A stretch of DNA of 64,000 nucleotides from Clostridiales bacterium (GTDB lineage: Bacteria; Bacillota; Clostridia; Lachnospirales; WQUN01), in assembly GCA_031270945.1 (NCBI GenBank), contig JAISWZ010000621.1:1-64000 (forward strand), written 5' to 3'. Below are positions 3,814 to 28,529 of the stretch, one piece after another. Under the pieces are notes generated by a model, which was given only the letters and a program-made list of their open reading frames with translations, was not told where the DNA came from and did no database searches. Both the position numbers and the translations under genes were made by a program. How positions within the stretch are numbered: the stretch's first letter is position 1; each line of letters starts with the position of its first letter.

Positions 3814-3912
3814 AGCATATCCCAAAATTATATCCGAGGCGCCGGAAAAATCCGGCGTTGAAGCATTCGCCAGGATTTTTCCGGCACCATTTCGGAATTT
3901 TGGGATATGCTC
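3814..3912. repeat. Full-length CATATCCC palindromic element
   Basis: Type-A copy: AGCATATCCCAAAATTATAT at the left, inner arms GCCGGAAAAATCCGGCG and GGATTTTTCCGGCACC around TTGAAGCATT, right end AATTTTGGGATATGCTCT. The whole 99 bp can fold into one long hairpin. A lone right end follows at about 3944-3959. Confidence 0.85.
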
Positions 3913-21752: not shown

Positions 21753-22073
21753 TGATTCAGCTCGCCGGGATATTTGCAAAGACTAAATTTCCCTTGTTCC
21801 TCGGAACTATCCGCAGTACCCAACGATTCGTTAATATTGCGTGCCATGGAAACTATTGCATTCTTAACAAACTGTCAAGGAAAAATGATATAATGGAGAG
21901 AGACCGCTTTATTTCGTCTCTTTTCAATTTTTTCCTGCACTTCTTTTCAATTGCCGACAATCATAGGCATTTTATACTCTAGAGCGACATGTTTTCGTTC
22001 TTGAGCATCCATCCAGCAAGTGAAAGCGCAGCCCTTTTCACTTGCCGAAATACAAAAAGGAGGACCCTCAAAT

Positions 22074-23504
22074 ATGAGGAAGGCCGTATTTCTTCTAGAA
22101 ACAGCGTTGACACTCTTCGCCCTGACTTCATGCGCCGCTCTGGCAGGCTTCACGCAAGTCAGCTCCCCTGATTCATCGCCAAAACCAAAGCCTGACATTC
22201 CGCTTGAAAGCTCGACCAATATCCTTGTGGAGCCGCCATTTCGCGGCTGGGTAACCGCAGACCGGACTTTGGACAATTACGGGCGCCTTCACCTGGATTG
22301 CCTGGTTCCCGACAGCAAGGGATACATATCATCTCCCAAAGACTTTGAAGTCCTTCTAGCCGAGGGAAGCGGCAGCTTCAAAGGGACAGTCTTTGTTCCA
22401 AGGGGAGAGGCCTCGAACGGAAACAGCATGTTTCGAGTTCGAGGAGACGGGGTGATCCTTTATACATCCCCGCAGTTCACAAAGACATCAAAACCTCTCA
22501 CGTTTGATATTGACATAAGCGGAGTCAGCGTTTTGTACATTGACGTAGAAATAGACAACCAAGTGGAGCTGATCTTTTCGGAATGCGTAATATCAGCCAC
22601 GCCAGCCTCAGCTCCCAACAGGACCCAAACAGCGTACCCTGACAAGCTCCTCAAGGAGCTGGAGGATGTATCTGGAGAGACCGACGCCAAATGGTCGGAG
22701 TATCCCGCCGGCTTTGACACCTATGGAACATTTCGCTACAACTGCCTGAAGCCCTGGACGAACGACTCCTGGAGCAGCCCGACAGGCGACATCGAAGTTC
22801 TGATCGGAGGAAAGTACAACAGCTTCAGAGGAACAGTCTTTGTCCCGGAAAACGCCAGAGGCGGAGGCTACTCAATGTTTAGGATCAGGGGAGACGGAAA
22901 GATTCTGTATACCTCGCCCCAGATAGACAGGCGCTCCCAGCCCATAAACTTTGAGATTGACGTGGCTGGGGTAACCGACTTCCGCATCGAGGTGGCGGAT
23001 GACAGCCAGGTTGACCTTGTCTTTTCTGACGCGGGATTCTGCGTCGCCCCAGCCAGCAGCCCAAATGGATCCCAGCCTGATTACCCGGATCTCCTTCTCA
23101 AGGACGCCACTGACATTAGCAACGAAAGCCTGAACAACAAATGGAGCGCTTCAACCAGCAGCACTGACAACTACGGCAAGTTCCATTACAGCTGCATATC
23201 CCCGTACTCAAGCGCCTCTTGGGGCACTGGAACCGGGGATATCGAAGTCCTGCTTGACTCCAAGTACAATCGCTTCAAGGGAGTGGTTTATGTAGCCCAA
23301 GGAGAGCACGGAGACGGCACTTTCAGGTTTGCGATAAAAGGGGATGGCCAAATCCTGTACGAGTCGCCTGAGATCAGGGCCGATTCTCACCCTCTCCAAA
23401 TCCCTGACATCATGATTGCTGGGATAAACACCTTCCGCATTGAAGTCTTGGACGATAACAAGCTCAAAAATGTCGTGTTCTCGGACTGCGGGTTTTATTA
23501 CTAA
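22074..23504 (+). CDS. Lipoprotein with three tandem NPCBM-like modules
   Basis: 476 aa. A lipoprotein signal (AVFLLETALTLFALTSC, lipobox LTSC) is followed by a Ser/Pro-rich linker and three repeats starting near residues 59, 207 and 357. Each runs W..........D.YG......C, then GDIEVLL or similar, FKGTVFVP, FRIRGDGKILYTSP, and a final GV...RIEV with VFSD. These are signatures of NPCBM carbohydrate-binding modules normally attached to glycosidases. No catalytic domain is present, so it is likely a surface glycan-binding lipoprotein. AAGGAGG precedes the ATG; the frame itself opens at 22020. A TATAAT box at 21889-21894 with a weak -35 may drive it. It is monocistronic. Confidence 0.75.
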   Translation: MRKAVFLLETALTLFALTSCAALAGFTQVSSPDSSPKPKPDIPLESSTNILVEPPFRGWVTADRTLDNYGRLHLDCLVPDSKGYISSPKDFEVLLAEGSGSFKGTVFVPRGEASNGNSMFRVRGDGVILYTSPQFTKTSKPLTFDIDISGVSVLYIDVEIDNQVELIFSECVISATPASAPNRTQTAYPDKLLKELEDVSGETDAKWSEYPAGFDTYGTFRYNCLKPWTNDSWSSPTGDIEVLIGGKYNSFRGTVFVPENARGGGYSMFRIRGDGKILYTSPQIDRRSQPINFEIDVAGVTDFRIEVADDSQVDLVFSDAGFCVAPASSPNGSQPDYPDLLLKDATDISNESLNNKWSASTSSTDNYGKFHYSCISPYSSASWGTGTGDIEVLLDSKYNRFKGVVYVAQGEHGDGTFRFAIKGDGQILYESPEIRADSHPLQIPDIMIAGINTFRIEVLDDNKLKNVVFSDCGFYY

Positions 23505-23527
23505 AAAGCCCGGGACAAACATAGCTT

Positions 23528-23606
23528 AAGGGCATATCCCAAATTTAATTCTATGGCGCATGCCTTTTTCCCGCGCCTTTTGTGAAATATTGGAATACGC
23601 ACTAAG
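23528..23606. repeat. Diverged CATATCCC element
   Basis: Left end GGCATATCCCAAATTTAATT, right end GAAATATTGGAATACGCAC followed by TAAG. The core is shortened. It lies just after the NPCBM lipoprotein gene. Confidence 0.65.
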
Positions 23607-23695
23607 CCTTCCAGCTTTGGCAATTTGCCCTTGAACATTGGTCAAGCCCTATCCGGCACCGTTTAATTTATCTCACTCTCCAATAAAAACGCATC

Positions 23696-23725
23696 AAAGG
23701 CGCATCGCGTAGGCGATGCGCCTTT
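23696..23725 (+). terminator. Strong hairpin, possible terminator
   Basis: AAAGGCGCATCGC and GCGATGCGCCTTT form a perfect 13-bp stem with a GTAG loop, followed by GGGCCTTCTG. The T-run is weak. Confidence 0.5.
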
Positions 23726-24009
23726 GGGCCTTCTGTATAATAAAAAACAAGAACATCACAATCTCTTGAAAATTGGGACTATAAGTGATACAATTGCATT
23801 ATGGCGAATCCATTGGCGGACGCTTGCGTCTTTCTTTTGCCCAAAAAAGGGCAGTCTTGTTGCATAGCCAAAAAAGCTCTGCAAAAGCTATCGCGAGGCT
23901 TTTGCAAGCAATGAAATTTATTGGATGATTCTACCGTAAGTGCCATCGTCCCAAGAAAACCAAAACGCCCTTTTGGGAGCTCTTGCTGTGGAATCATTGG
24001 ATATGCTTT
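23726..24009. other. Spacer, no gene recognised
   Basis: No credible ORF is present. It ends in a lone element end, GGATATGCTTTAA, immediately before the next full copy. Confidence 0.4.
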
Positions 24010-24114
24010 AAGAGCATATCCCAAAATTAATTCCATGGCTTGAAAAATTCCGGCGTTGAAGCATTCGCCAGGAATTTTTCTGCGCCTTAACGGAATTTTG
24101 GGATATGCACTAAG
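24010..24114. repeat. Full-length CATATCCC palindromic element
   Basis: Type-A copy with TAA on both flanks (TTTAA-GAGCATATCCC and GGGATATGCAC-TAAG). Confidence 0.88.
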
Positions 24115-24674
24115 TACTGCGGAGTCTTGCCCTCTTTGGAGCAGCTGGCGCTGCCTCGAAAGGAAAGCTTCTCCTCTCGAACGGCCCAAGCCTAATCAAA
24201 GCATCCTCCTTGACCGCCGCGTCTCAGAAGAAACCTTGAAAGGCAATAGGCCTAGCATTGCCAACCGCCTGCCATCGAGGGCTTAACCTCCGCCCTAAAG
24301 GGAAAGCCTTCATCCCGCCATTCAAGGACAAGCAAAAAGCGCCATGCTTGCGGGCTTGCTCATAACACCCCGCTTGTCCAGCAAAGACATGGCAGAACTT
24401 GATTGAGGCAGCCGATGCAGCTAGCCGTCTCGCCCAATTTCCAGCCTCCATCCTGTTTAGGTGGCTCTACATGTGCACCAGTCAGGGATTAGCGCTTGAC
24501 GAGCGCTTGATGAACCCGGCTCTTTTGCTCTCGAGCGAAAACATCTATCAAGTTAATTTATAGTTTTCACTTGCAGGCAAACGCCGTCCAGAGTGAAAAG
24601 AACAGTTCTTTTCAATCACCGGCATGCTGCCGGACTCTGCCTCAGCGTAAAAGAAGCTATCTTGTCGCTCTCGG
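24115..24674. other. Gene-free spacer
   Basis: Several short open stretches exist on both strands, but none has a ribosome binding site or protein-like conservation. Possibly decayed coding sequence. Confidence 0.35.
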
Positions 24675-24740
24675 AGCGTATCCCAAAATTTATCTTAGGG
24701 CGCTGAAAAGCCACGCGTTAAAGCATCGCATGCTTTTTAA
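24675..24740. repeat. Truncated type-B CATATCCC element
   Basis: GAGCGTATCCCAAAATTTAT and the core AAAAGCCACGCGTTAAAGCAT are present, but the right half is replaced by the next element, as if that one inserted into it. Confidence 0.75.
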
Positions 24741-24873
24741 GAGCATATCCCAAAATTATATCCGAGGTGCCAGAAAAGTCCGGGTGTTTGCTCGCAGAAG
24801 CCCGAGCAAACTAGTTGAAGCATTCGCCAGGACTTTTCCGGCACCAATACGGAATTTTGGGATATGCACTAAG
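24738..24873. repeat. CATATCCC element carrying an inner hairpin
   Basis: Type-A copy in which the stem tip after AAAAGTCCGG is replaced by an extra hairpin with arms GTTTGCTCG and CGAGCAAAC around CAGAAGCC. The copy at 34811-34942 has the same insert in the opposite orientation. Confidence 0.85.
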
Positions 24874-25030
24874 CGCTACTGCAAGAACTTTGGGACATGC
24901 ACTCATTGTAACCCAATCCCTCACCAGTGTCAAATTCATTTCCAATTTATCTGTTACATTTTCATTTCACTCCATGCCAGCAAAAAAATAGGCTTTTGTT
25001 ATGCTAGTGTTGGGATGTGTTGGGATGTGC

Positions 25031-25134
25031 TTTAGTGCATATCCCAAAATTCAAAAAAGGGCGCAGGAAAAGTCATGCGATGCTTTAACGCGTTACTTTT
25101 CCAAACCTTATAATAAATTTTGGGATATGCTCTT
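25031..25134. repeat. Full-length type-B CATATCCC element
   Basis: TTTAGTGCATATCCC to GGGATATGCTCTTG, core GGGCGCAGGAAAAGTCATGC / GCGTTACTTTTCC. Nearly identical to 43037-43138. Confidence 0.88.
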
Positions 25135-25286
25135 GGCAAGAATTCAAGCTCGCTTTTAGGACAGCCCAAATATCGCAAATGCTCTAAATTTTTCAGCCAA
25201 ATGATATCTTTTTGTTAAATCCGACAATACTAATAGTTAGAGCATGCGCTTGCAATTCACTTATTCAGCGTGAAAGGAGAAAATAT

Positions 25287-26261
25287 ATGGAATCAAAGAC
25301 CAAGGAAAAGATTGCGCTGTTTCGGTTTTCGATGATAGCTCCTGTCGTGAGCGGCACAATCAAAGCCTCAGCCGATGAGTATTTCAAAATGGCGGCCGAA
25401 TCGCCTCACCGGGATCTGGACGGAGAGATGACAAAGCCCACCTATGAAGAGCTCAAAGAATGGTTTGAGAGATATAGGAAAGATGGGCTTTCCGGCTTGT
25501 ACCCTTCCTACAAAGACAACACCGAGTCCACGGAGCTAAGCGCGGAAGTTGTCAATGCAATTCGCAAGATCAAGCTCCAGCATCCCCAAGCTACGGGAAC
25601 GCACATTTACGAAATGCTTTTGGAAAACGGGAACATAGACTCCAGCATTAAGTTAGGCGCTTTCTTGCGCTCTCTTAGGATTAACGACCTTAATGCCACA
25701 AGTCCGAACAAGGAACCGAAGGCTTTCGAGATGTCCAAGCCAAACGAATTGTGGCAGAGCGCGATCACTGCCGGCCCGAAGCTAGAAGACGATCAAATCG
25801 TTAGGCTGTACGCGATCCTTGATGACAACAGCAGAATGATAGTTGGAGCGAGGTACTTTTTGGGCTATGGCGATGACGCTGTCAAGCAGACGCTTCGAGA
25901 GGCCTTTCTCAACTGCGGCATCCCCCAATCGCTATCCTTGGGCAGCGACCCTGCCTGCGACAGCGAAGAGGTGGATGAGATCTGCGAAGCGCTTGACATA
26001 GAAGCCATTCACTGTTCCCGTATCGCTACCGGCAAAATAGGCAAGATCAAGCGGTTTTTCCGCACCCTCAACGACCGCTGGCTAACCAGCGTACCTACGC
26101 CTCCAGACTTGGACTCCTTGAACGCCGGGCTTGGCGAGTTCATCGAATTATACAACAACATAGTGCACAGCGGGACGAACATGACACCCAAGGCCCGCTG
26201 GACGAAATCGTCGCAGCGCATAAGGCGCTTGCCTCCGGAAAAAATTGAAAGCGCGTTTTAA
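25287..26261 (+). CDS. Transposase-like DDE integrase-core protein, catalytic residues replaced
   Basis: 324 aa. The architecture is that of Mu/IS481-like transposases: N-terminal helix-turn-helix region (EKIALFRFSMIAPVVSG, YEELKEWFERYRKDGLSGL), a second helical domain, then an RNase H-like core (PNELWQS, YAILDDNSRMIVGARY, GKIKRFFRTLNDRWL). In active relatives the triad lies in WQ(S/T)D, VDNG and GKIER. Here those positions read WQSA (Ala159), LGSD (Gly219) and GKIKR (Lys255), so all three appear lost although the frame is complete and AAAGGAG precedes the ATG. No terminal repeats flank it. It may be a domesticated DNA-binding protein; a recently decayed transposase is the alternative. Confidence 0.75.
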   Translation: MESKTKEKIALFRFSMIAPVVSGTIKASADEYFKMAAESPHRDLDGEMTKPTYEELKEWFERYRKDGLSGLYPSYKDNTESTELSAEVVNAIRKIKLQHPQATGTHIYEMLLENGNIDSSIKLGAFLRSLRINDLNATSPNKEPKAFEMSKPNELWQSAITAGPKLEDDQIVRLYAILDDNSRMIVGARYFLGYGDDAVKQTLREAFLNCGIPQSLSLGSDPACDSEEVDEICEALDIEAIHCSRIATGKIGKIKRFFRTLNDRWLTSVPTPPDLDSLNAGLGEFIELYNNIVHSGTNMTPKARWTKSSQRIRRLPPEKIESAF

Positions 26262-26320
26262 GCCAATTAAGAGGATATGTTAATTTAAAGGCTGAGCCCA
26301 AAAGGCTGTCGCGGCAACGC

Positions 26321-26345
26321 GTCGAAATATTGATATATTTAGAAT
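26321..26345. repeat. Solo left-type end of the TGTCGAAATATTGATA family
   Basis: CGTCGAAATATTGATATATT, matching the ends of the 134-bp MITE at 1969, with no partner nearby. It lies 60 bases after the transposase-like gene. Confidence 0.55.
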
Positions 26346-26354
26346 TCTATCACG

Positions 26355-26432
26355 CTTAATGCATATTCCAAAATTCAAAAAAGGCTTAGGTGCTTTTCCC
26401 TCGCCATAACATTAAATTGAAATATGCTCTTA
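26355..26432. repeat. Degenerate CATATCCC element
   Basis: TTAATGCATATTCCAAAATT to AAATTGAAATATGCTCTTA with a worn core. Confidence 0.6.
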
Positions 26433-26433
26433 T

Positions 26434-26460
26434 CTCAGCGCCCCCCAGGGGGGCGCTGAG
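26434..26460. other. Perfect GC palindrome
   Basis: CTCAGCGCCCCCC and GGGGGGCGCTGAG with a single central A, a 13-bp perfect inverted repeat. It could be a hairpin or a dimeric-protein site. Confidence 0.5.
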
Positions 26461-26669
26461 AGGCGCTGGCCCAAAAACCCCATACCCTGTTAAAATTCAA
26501 AGCCAGCGCCTAATTAAGGCTCATCAAAGACTGCGCATGCCTTTTTTGATCGCTTTTTGCGCATATTGTTAAACCTTGGCCATAAGTCAGTTCTAAAAAA
26601 ATATTATTCTGAAAATTTTTACCAATCCTAGGCCAGACACACTGTCATTTATCTCTGAAAATCCCTAAG

Positions 26670-26706
26670 AAAAGCGGGTTCGGACATGCCGAACCCGCTT
26701 TTTTCA
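26670..26706 (+). terminator. Intrinsic terminator
   Basis: AAAGCGGGTTCGG and CCGAACCCGCTTT with an ACATG loop region, followed by TTT and CATG. It is probably the end of the transcript from the transposase-like gene 400 bases upstream, or of an unseen small RNA. Confidence 0.75.
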
Positions 26707-27246
26707 TGCATTTGAGTAATGTAGTCATTTTGTCGATGAAATGTTAGACGGATCTTAGAGAATGAAAGCGAAATGTGCGCAACAGCACCCATAACATCAA
26801 GCACGTTTTAACTTGTATGACAGGCTTTTTGACGCTTTTCGCCGCCTTGTTTTTCCACTATTCGACCTTTTTGGCCATGCTGCATTATCTTTCGACAAAT
26901 ATCTTCGATATTCTCTTGACATATAGCAACTTTACTGTTAGAATTATAAATAGTTCCAGAAAGCCCTAACATATCTCTTTTCCTGCAACCAGAGCCAATC
27001 ATGGCGCGGATCTGCGCTAATGACGGCGGTTTGGGCAATGGTCTGCCAATCGCCCAAACTTGTTTCATACATAAAGCGCTGCCGACTTGAGTGAAAACGC
27101 TTTTTTTCTCCAGCCGGCGCGCGCCCTCGATGCATTTCGCCACGGTTCCCCCCACCATGGCTTGAAACGCTGCTGCGGCGGTTTCTTTGCCGCGCAATAG
27201 TTTTCCAGCCAGAACGCTATGGCGACTGGCCAAAAATTTTATGAAT
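26707..27246. other. Spacer upstream of the surface-protein gene
   Basis: No gene is supported on either strand. A minus-strand frame of 149 codons (26808-27257) has no ribosome binding site and no recognisable product. The region should contain the promoter of the gene at 27261. Confidence 0.4.
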
Positions 27247-27260
27247 GGAGGCATCAAACA

Positions 27261-28529
27261 ATGGGAAAGAAGAAACTGACTGCAGTCGCGGCTGCATTGG
27301 TTGTCCTCATTGTCGCTATCTCAGGCACATTCGCCTGGATAAGCTTCAACAACAAGAACACGACAGGCATTACGGGCCAAGATGAAACGCCTGGCGGCAG
27401 CACCCATGACGACTTCGCCGACCCGAACAAGGATGTTTATGTAGAGAACTGGGGCGATGTCCCGATTTATGTGCGCGTTAAGATCAGCGAGTACATGGAG
27501 GTAGGAAAGCTTGCTGGAACTACCGACGCGAACAAAGACGTCGTAAAGCTCAAACCCGATTCAGAATTTGAAGACGAGTCCACTTGGTACCCCTACAACG
27601 TAGCCGCAGTTGATACCCCTTTCCGCCAGTACTGGACATTGGTAGGCGGCGGGCAAAAGTACTACAAGCCAGTGGCCGCTGAAAACCAGGTCGCTGGATA
27701 TGTCGCCAAAGACCCAACTCCTTACAACGGCTCAGAGGCGGGCGTAAAGCTCACCCTGCCCGCCCAGGTTCTCGACATGAAGACATGGGTTCTTTCTGGA
27801 ATGACAATCGGCGAATACTGGGTTGGCGACACTGACGGATGGTTCTATTGGGCTGCCCCGCTTGAACCAGGACAGGCCACAGGCCTTCTCTTGGACAGAA
27901 TTGACAAGGCCCAGAAAGTTCCGGGCGGCACGTACTACTACGGAATTCATACCGATACGCAAATGGCCACACGCACGGGCGATCTTTCAGCTCCTGAAGA
28001 CTACACATCCTTTGGGACAAGCGAGCTTGGCGGCTGGACATTTGACGGCGCAGCGCTTATGAAGCGCATTACCGGCAATGACTACGCCTATTCTCCAGTT
28101 GATGATCCCGCGCAGACTCCTGAAACCCCTGAAGAGTCAAAAGACGCTGACTCTGACGTGAAAGAGGATTCCGAAGACGCTGACACTGACGTGAAAGAGG
28201 ATTCTGAAGGCGCTGAAACAGAAGAAGATTCCGAAGGCGCTGATGTAGAAGAAGATTCCGAAAGCGCTGATGTAGAAGAAGATTCTGAAGGCGCTGACCC
28301 AGAAGAAGATTCCGAAGGCGCTGACACAGAAGAAGATTCTGAAGACGCTGACACAGAAGAAGATTCAGCTGCTGACCCAGACGTTCCCGGCGCTGTAGAG
28401 CCAGATTCAGAAGATTCAGATTCAGAAGATTCAGACGCTGGCACCGACGATCTCACGACCGAGACAGATGTTGAAATCGTCGACAAGCCTATCGAAATCG
28501 TCGACAAGCCTATCAAAATCGTTGACTAG
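27261..28529 (+). CDS. BsaA/TasA-like SipW-dependent surface protein with acidic repeats
   Basis: 422 aa. The signal peptide has the form of SipW-processed matrix proteins (LTAVAAALVVLIVAISGTFA). The body fits the BsaA-type biofilm matrix family: KDVYVENWGDVPIYVRVKIS, YWTLVGGGQKYY, YWVGDTDGWFYWAAPLEPGQ, ATGLLLDRID. From about residue 285 the chain becomes very acidic, with several decapeptide-like EEDSEGAD units and SEDSDSEDSD, then two or three copies of EIVDKPI. GGAGG lies before the ATG. No SipW gene is in the window. The reading frame ends at a TAG inside the last repeat series; the same frame stays open for 15 more codons. Confidence 0.72.
   Translation: MGKKKLTAVAAALVVLIVAISGTFAWISFNNKNTTGITGQDETPGGSTHDDFADPNKDVYVENWGDVPIYVRVKISEYMEVGKLAGTTDANKDVVKLKPDSEFEDESTWYPYNVAAVDTPFRQYWTLVGGGQKYYKPVAAENQVAGYVAKDPTPYNGSEAGVKLTLPAQVLDMKTWVLSGMTIGEYWVGDTDGWFYWAAPLEPGQATGLLLDRIDKAQKVPGGTYYYGIHTDTQMATRTGDLSAPEDYTSFGTSELGGWTFDGAALMKRITGNDYAYSPVDDPAQTPETPEESKDADSDVKEDSEDADTDVKEDSEGAETEEDSEGADVEEDSESADVEEDSEGADPEEDSEGADTEEDSEDADTEEDSAADPDVPGAVEPDSEDSDSEDSDAGTDDLTTETDVEIVDKPIEIVDKPIKIVD

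Follow-up and report, generated by a model that had tools for sequence, protein, structure and literature searches.

An intact transposase-derived gene without its catalytic triad in a Clostridiales genome, probably retained as a DNA-binding protein

The window, that is, the whole stretch of DNA analysed here, comprises 64,000 nucleotides (positions 1 to 64,000 of contig JAISWZ010000621.1) of the Clostridiales bacterium assembly GCA_031270945.1, which we refer to as G000. At 25287..26261 of its forward strand lies a transposase-derived gene whose 324-aa product, P0001, is predicted to be catalytically dead. The open reading frame starts with an ATG at 25287, runs to a stop codon ending at 26261 without any internal stop, and is preceded by the ribosome binding site AAAGGAG, which ends 7 nt before the ATG; the intact frame and good ribosome binding site that an earlier note had claimed for the gene are both there. 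P0001 is present as a single copy in its genome. It matches the IS481 transposase model NF033577 with an E value of 1.7e-32 and 113.1 bits, short of the curated cut-off of 224 bits, and gives three Pfam matches, all below the curated cut-offs: HTH_32 over residues 58-115 (E 5.3e-5), rve (PF00665) over residues 150-244 (E 2.8e-6), and rve_3 over residues 252-291 (E 0.0033). We distinguish an HTH part, residues 1-140 (25287..25706, +), presumed to bind DNA from the HTH_32 match, the conserved positions it keeps and a moderately confident model, and an RNase H-like (rve) core (25734..26018, +), delimited by the rve match, whose triad is gone and whose third catalytic position falls just past the end of that match. 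The single-sequence AlphaFold2 model of P0001 has a mean pLDDT of 42, with moderate confidence in the N-terminal HTH part only, and a phmmer search against solved structures returned nothing meaningful, the best E value (0.021) being to a proteasome subunit. The earlier note had also described a full-length alignment with Mu/IS481-type transposases. The IS481/rve homology holds, but P0001 stops at 'ESAF', ahead of the Mu-type C-terminal domain that is present in active relatives and in P0002, a protein encoded elsewhere in G000 (32% identity to P0001; C-terminal domain E 3.3e-7), and no remnant of this domain was detectable 3′ of the gene. Scans for promoters and terminators around P0001 gave values near those of shuffled controls, and none of its neighbours points to a regulated pathway. 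A nearby NPCBM protein (22020-23504) has no match in G001, a genome of the same genus, and on the other side of P0001 the window encodes a secreted-looking protein (27219-28529, +) that has no Pfam match and whose C terminus bears an acidic repeat built of 'EEDSEGAD' units.

All three catalytic positions of P0001 are changed: codon 159 reads Ala (GCG, 25761..25763, +) at the first catalytic Asp, codon 219 reads Gly (GGC, 25941..25943, +) at the second, and codon 255 reads Lys (AAG, 26049..26051, +) at the catalytic Glu. These replacements (D159A, D219G, E255K) were proposed in the earlier note, and an alignment with relatives from whole genomes confirms them, as A159, G219 and K255 occupy the D, D and E columns of the MAFFT alignment with no gap there. 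The same columns hold D, D and E in every one of the 28 rows of more than 350 aa that come from outside the genus, as well as in P0003, an intact relative from G000 itself. P0002 has H, S and D, so all three acids are changed there too, and the first core of a locus in G001 (L034) has D, R and R. At that place in G001 (contig C268; 2037-3914 of locus L073) a single 625-aa ORF carries two tandem transposase cores, 48% identical to each other, both without the second and third catalytic acids.

Identical copies compared within two genomes show that elements of the P0001 family measure about 3.0 kb and have ends starting with TGT, the terminal repeats being TGT...ACA. Of five copies inspected by eye, four are flanked by 6-bp target duplications and one, L103, is not. 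We surveyed the neighbours of the transposase at 49 loci, 44 of them outside the genus of the window and several being identical copies within one genome. Outside the genus, an AAA ATPase match lies next to the transposase at 43/44 loci and a DUF6431-like gene at 26/44. Around P0001 and P0002, neither kind of match turned up within 1.5 kb, and a short motif search found no TGT...ACA end motif of the family at 24801-25290 or 26261-26800. Homology to the DUF6431-transposase-ATPase element extends over the HTH part and rve core of P0001. What is left at the locus is a combination that marks an exapted transposase, in that the frame is intact while the catalytic residues, the partner genes and the ends of the element are all missing. 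The element on Geobacillus plasmid pGeo12a is annotated as DUF6431, IS481 transposase and AAA ATPase, with the gene order of the relatives' elements, and its transposase is a homologue about 30% identical to P0001 across residues 1-287; unlike it, P0001 lacks the triad, the partner genes, the C-terminal domain and the element ends. Because the loci of the relatives and the Geobacillus plasmid annotation carry this trio, P0001 can be traced to a three-gene transposon of a type already known. Transposases on staphylococcal plasmids, which we take to be of the Tn552 type, resemble P0001 in overall type (by tblastn, about 24% identity across 94% of P0001) and are annotated 'Mu transposase C-terminal domain-containing protein', but they are far more distant from it. 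A composite locus on contig C18 of G000 (L071, 659-6718) contains a DUF6431-like gene, an intact-triad transposase, two degenerate rve ORFs and an AAA ATPase, and also encodes a protein with a Mu-transpos_C_2 domain.

Matches to P0001 occur in 3/61 nearby genomes, its own included (E ≤ 1e-10), in 17/392 genomes of the order (E ≤ 1e-8) and in 16/391 of the class (E ≤ 1e-20). The closest relative outside G000 is 37% identical, the matches in G001 reach 25-33% only, and no orthologue was found among the nearby, family, order and class genomes searched; viral contigs contributed no relatives fit for an alignment. A profile built from P0001 and P0002 matched four of 38 family genomes, namely G000, G001, G004, where the match is an intact element, and G008, where it is a fragment with two stops. 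G000 itself (8.8 Mb, 76% complete) has three places with rve matches: P0001, P0002 and the C18 element. In a tree of 30 rows P0001 and P0002 are sisters with moderate, not full, support (bootstrap 96, SH-aLRT 72), and they join the intact P0003 in a clade at 95/93. A smaller tree left their rows unresolved, with a warning of long branches meeting, and a grouping of P0001, P0002 and L034 was not rejected (p-AU 0.19). The terminal branch of P0001, at 1.72, is only about 1.3 times as long as the 1.32 of the intact P0003. P0002 looks like a second protein of the same kind, and the two may share a dead ancestor. Because their dead residues differ, it is also possible, as far as the sequences tell, that each lost catalysis independently.

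The presence of an intact relative in the same genome bears on one alternative, in which P0001 is an inhibitor of transposition: a truncated, dead protein that binds related ends, ATPase or transposase and is kept for limiting damage. Inhibitory partial transposases often lack the C-terminal domain, as P0001 does; its HTH part is well preserved, and contig C18 carries an intact-triad relative together with its ATPase. However, P0001 and the C18 transposase are just 31-32% identical, which makes recognition of common ends doubtful, and one such element found in 8.8 Mb leaves little to inhibit. We therefore regard this role as unlikely, if worth keeping in view.

The absence of an orthologue, the long terminal branch and the missing C-terminal domain would also suit a decaying transposon relic whose frame is open by luck, as would further truncated or broken copies known from the genus and family, such as the G008 fragment and an N-terminal fragment on contig C217 of G001. 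To compare catalytic with other columns, we counted as conserved those shared by 85% or more of the 29 rows with an intact triad, namely P0003 plus the 28 outside the genus. P0001 retains 0/3 catalytic vs 30/39 other conserved columns (13/16 in residues 1-140 and 17/23 in the remainder), and P0002 retains 0/3 vs 33/39. One-sided Fisher tests, which rest on three catalytic columns, give p values of 0.019 for P0001 and 0.007 for P0002, with ranges of 0.013-0.035 and 0.0055-0.024, respectively, over eight choices (four thresholds and two row sets, by thinning). When N220 and G221, picked post hoc, were added to the triad, the two-sided values were 0.0009 and 0.00015. L034 has diverged generally (p 0.36-0.72), and because it shows no selectivity for the triad we do not count it as support. 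When neutral evolution was simulated up to the loss of the three acids, 8, 7 and 12 genes per 4000 were still free of stops at kappa 1, 2 and 4, that is, an open frame survived in just 0.2-0.3% of runs; the simulation used substitutions only, and indels would push this share lower still. Among five broken relatives from outside the genus, L059, L081 and L093 keep all three acids, while L057 and L090 keep the first two, the third lying past the break. Broken relatives therefore show the reverse order, in which the frame breaks first and the triad residues they cover are still there. P0002, moreover, is a second intact protein without the triad. Identity between P0001 and P0002 at the three codon positions is 0.51/0.56/0.41, and GC3 of the gene is as in five neighbouring genes. 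A relic is thus a rather improbable account of P0001. Because the acids are gone and other positions kept, because neutral decay rarely gives this outcome, and because P0002 is likewise triad-less, the comparisons support a loss of catalysis under selective retention of the frame.

P0001 sits between two copies of a dispersed repeat of about 100 bp that is unrelated to its family: an inverted-repeat copy upstream (25032..25135, no strand assigned) and a diverged, shorter copy downstream (about 26354..26432, no strand assigned). The earlier note had reported no terminal repeats, which is correct for the TGT...ACA ends of the family, but these copies flank the gene. The dispersed element is MITE-like, about 75-125 bp long, with inverted repeats and the ends GCATATCCCAAAATT; exact ends number 829 forward and 811 reverse in the 8.8 Mb of G000, while the reversed control gave 0. 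Copies in the window lie at 3815, 5260, 6585, 9674, 21652, 24014, 24743, 25037, 30703, 32389, 34814, 43040, 55757 and 59404. Paired ends were found in 1/38 family genomes, with none in G001, and no mobilising enzyme for the repeat was found. P0001 could be imagined to act with this repeat, as REP-associated transposases do with REPINs, since copies flank it and positions 23500-26500 hold 10 of the 44 ends in the window vs 2.1 expected, the densest 3 kb, with at most 7 ends per 3 kb elsewhere. Nevertheless, the repeat ends are unlike the TGT...ACA ends of rve elements, G001 holds dead homologues but no repeat copies, the contig stretch around P0002 is sparse in the repeat (4 end matches per 14 kb), and P0001 lacks the catalytic activity that mobilising a repeat would require. 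We rejected the link, proximity being all that speaks for it, and consider such a partnership very improbable. TnpAREP/RAYT proteins, like P0001, are transposase relatives without flanking element ends that lie among dispersed palindromic repeats; unlike P0001 they are catalytically competent and are not DDE enzymes. They have been termed the first domesticated transposase of prokaryotes (PMC8266576).

The least credible alternative, that the triad changes are alignment artefacts and P0001 is enzymatically active by means of other acids such as Asp179 or Asp221, is already refuted at the level of sequence, since the three columns are ungapped, Asp179 (in the conserved DD of 'DDNSR') is conserved beside the triad in active relatives and so is extra to it, no acidic residue lies within 3 residues of position 159 or within 5 of position 255, and Asp221, which the earlier note had named as a possible catalytic acid, falls on the glycine of the family 'DNG' and is for that reason no substitute. 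Sequencing error is unlikely too, because it would require three separate missense codons inside an intact frame.

We favour the view that P0001 is a retained, non-catalytic, transposase-derived DNA-binding protein, and think this probable, with binding and function being the parts that we infer. Its ancestor was the DDE transposase of an element with a DUF6431-like gene, an IS481/Mu-like transposase and an AAA ATPase. Within the limits of the comparison, P0001 has lost all three acids together with the Mu-type C-terminal domain, and its partner genes and the ends of the element are gone as well, while selection, on the statistical evidence above, seems to have preserved the frame, the HTH half and most structural positions. 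Because the HTH half is kept, and the core is kept but acid-free, sequence-specific binding without cutting is suggested: P0001 would most likely bind a site resembling the ancestral transposon end, or one evolved from it, and would act by occupying that site, whether in host regulation or in lasting competition with related transposases. Of the domestication claimed in the earlier note, then, selective retention is supported, while a DNA-binding or regulatory role is the best reading of it. It is conceivable, though on balance doubtful, that P0001 and P0002 are the progeny of one dead ancestor and the first known representatives of a genus-specific family of protein-guided, DNA-binding regulators derived from DDE transposases, a DDE counterpart of TldR, the nuclease-dead TnpB repressors.

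In eukaryotes, dead DDE transposases retained as regulators are well known. Among prokaryotes, our literature search, at the level of the results returned, found domestication of TnpAREP and TnpB and no dead DDE transposase of the P0001 element type. TldR proteins are nuclease-dead, TnpB-derived transcription factors (PMC13418256). They parallel the role proposed for P0001, having arisen from a bacterial transposon nuclease whose active site was lost and which persisted as a regulator that binds DNA. They differ in being RNA-guided and derived from TnpB, whereas P0001 is of the DDE type, and its own HTH domains would direct it to its sites. Should P0001 and P0002 prove functional, they would offer a tractable bacterial case, with intact relatives at hand for comparison, for testing whether bacterial transposon end-recognition domains turn into regulators, as in plants and animals.

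Finally, other observations concern G001 and the size of these genomes. On its contig C217 (L074, 4058-4522) there is a 154-aa N-terminal fragment of a transposase of the P0001 family, which shares 47% identity with the intact L078 across 153 residues. We considered it as a stand-alone HTH protein and rejected the idea, because the frame appears broken past the ORF and the remainder of the gene is absent, as in a relic. An IS3-like transposase frame on contig C64 (L113) reads 'NSGQGSQ', by eye, at the motif of the second catalytic Asp. G000 and G001, at 8.8 and 7.7 Mb, are large vs the 1.7-3.7 Mb of the other 36 family members searched.
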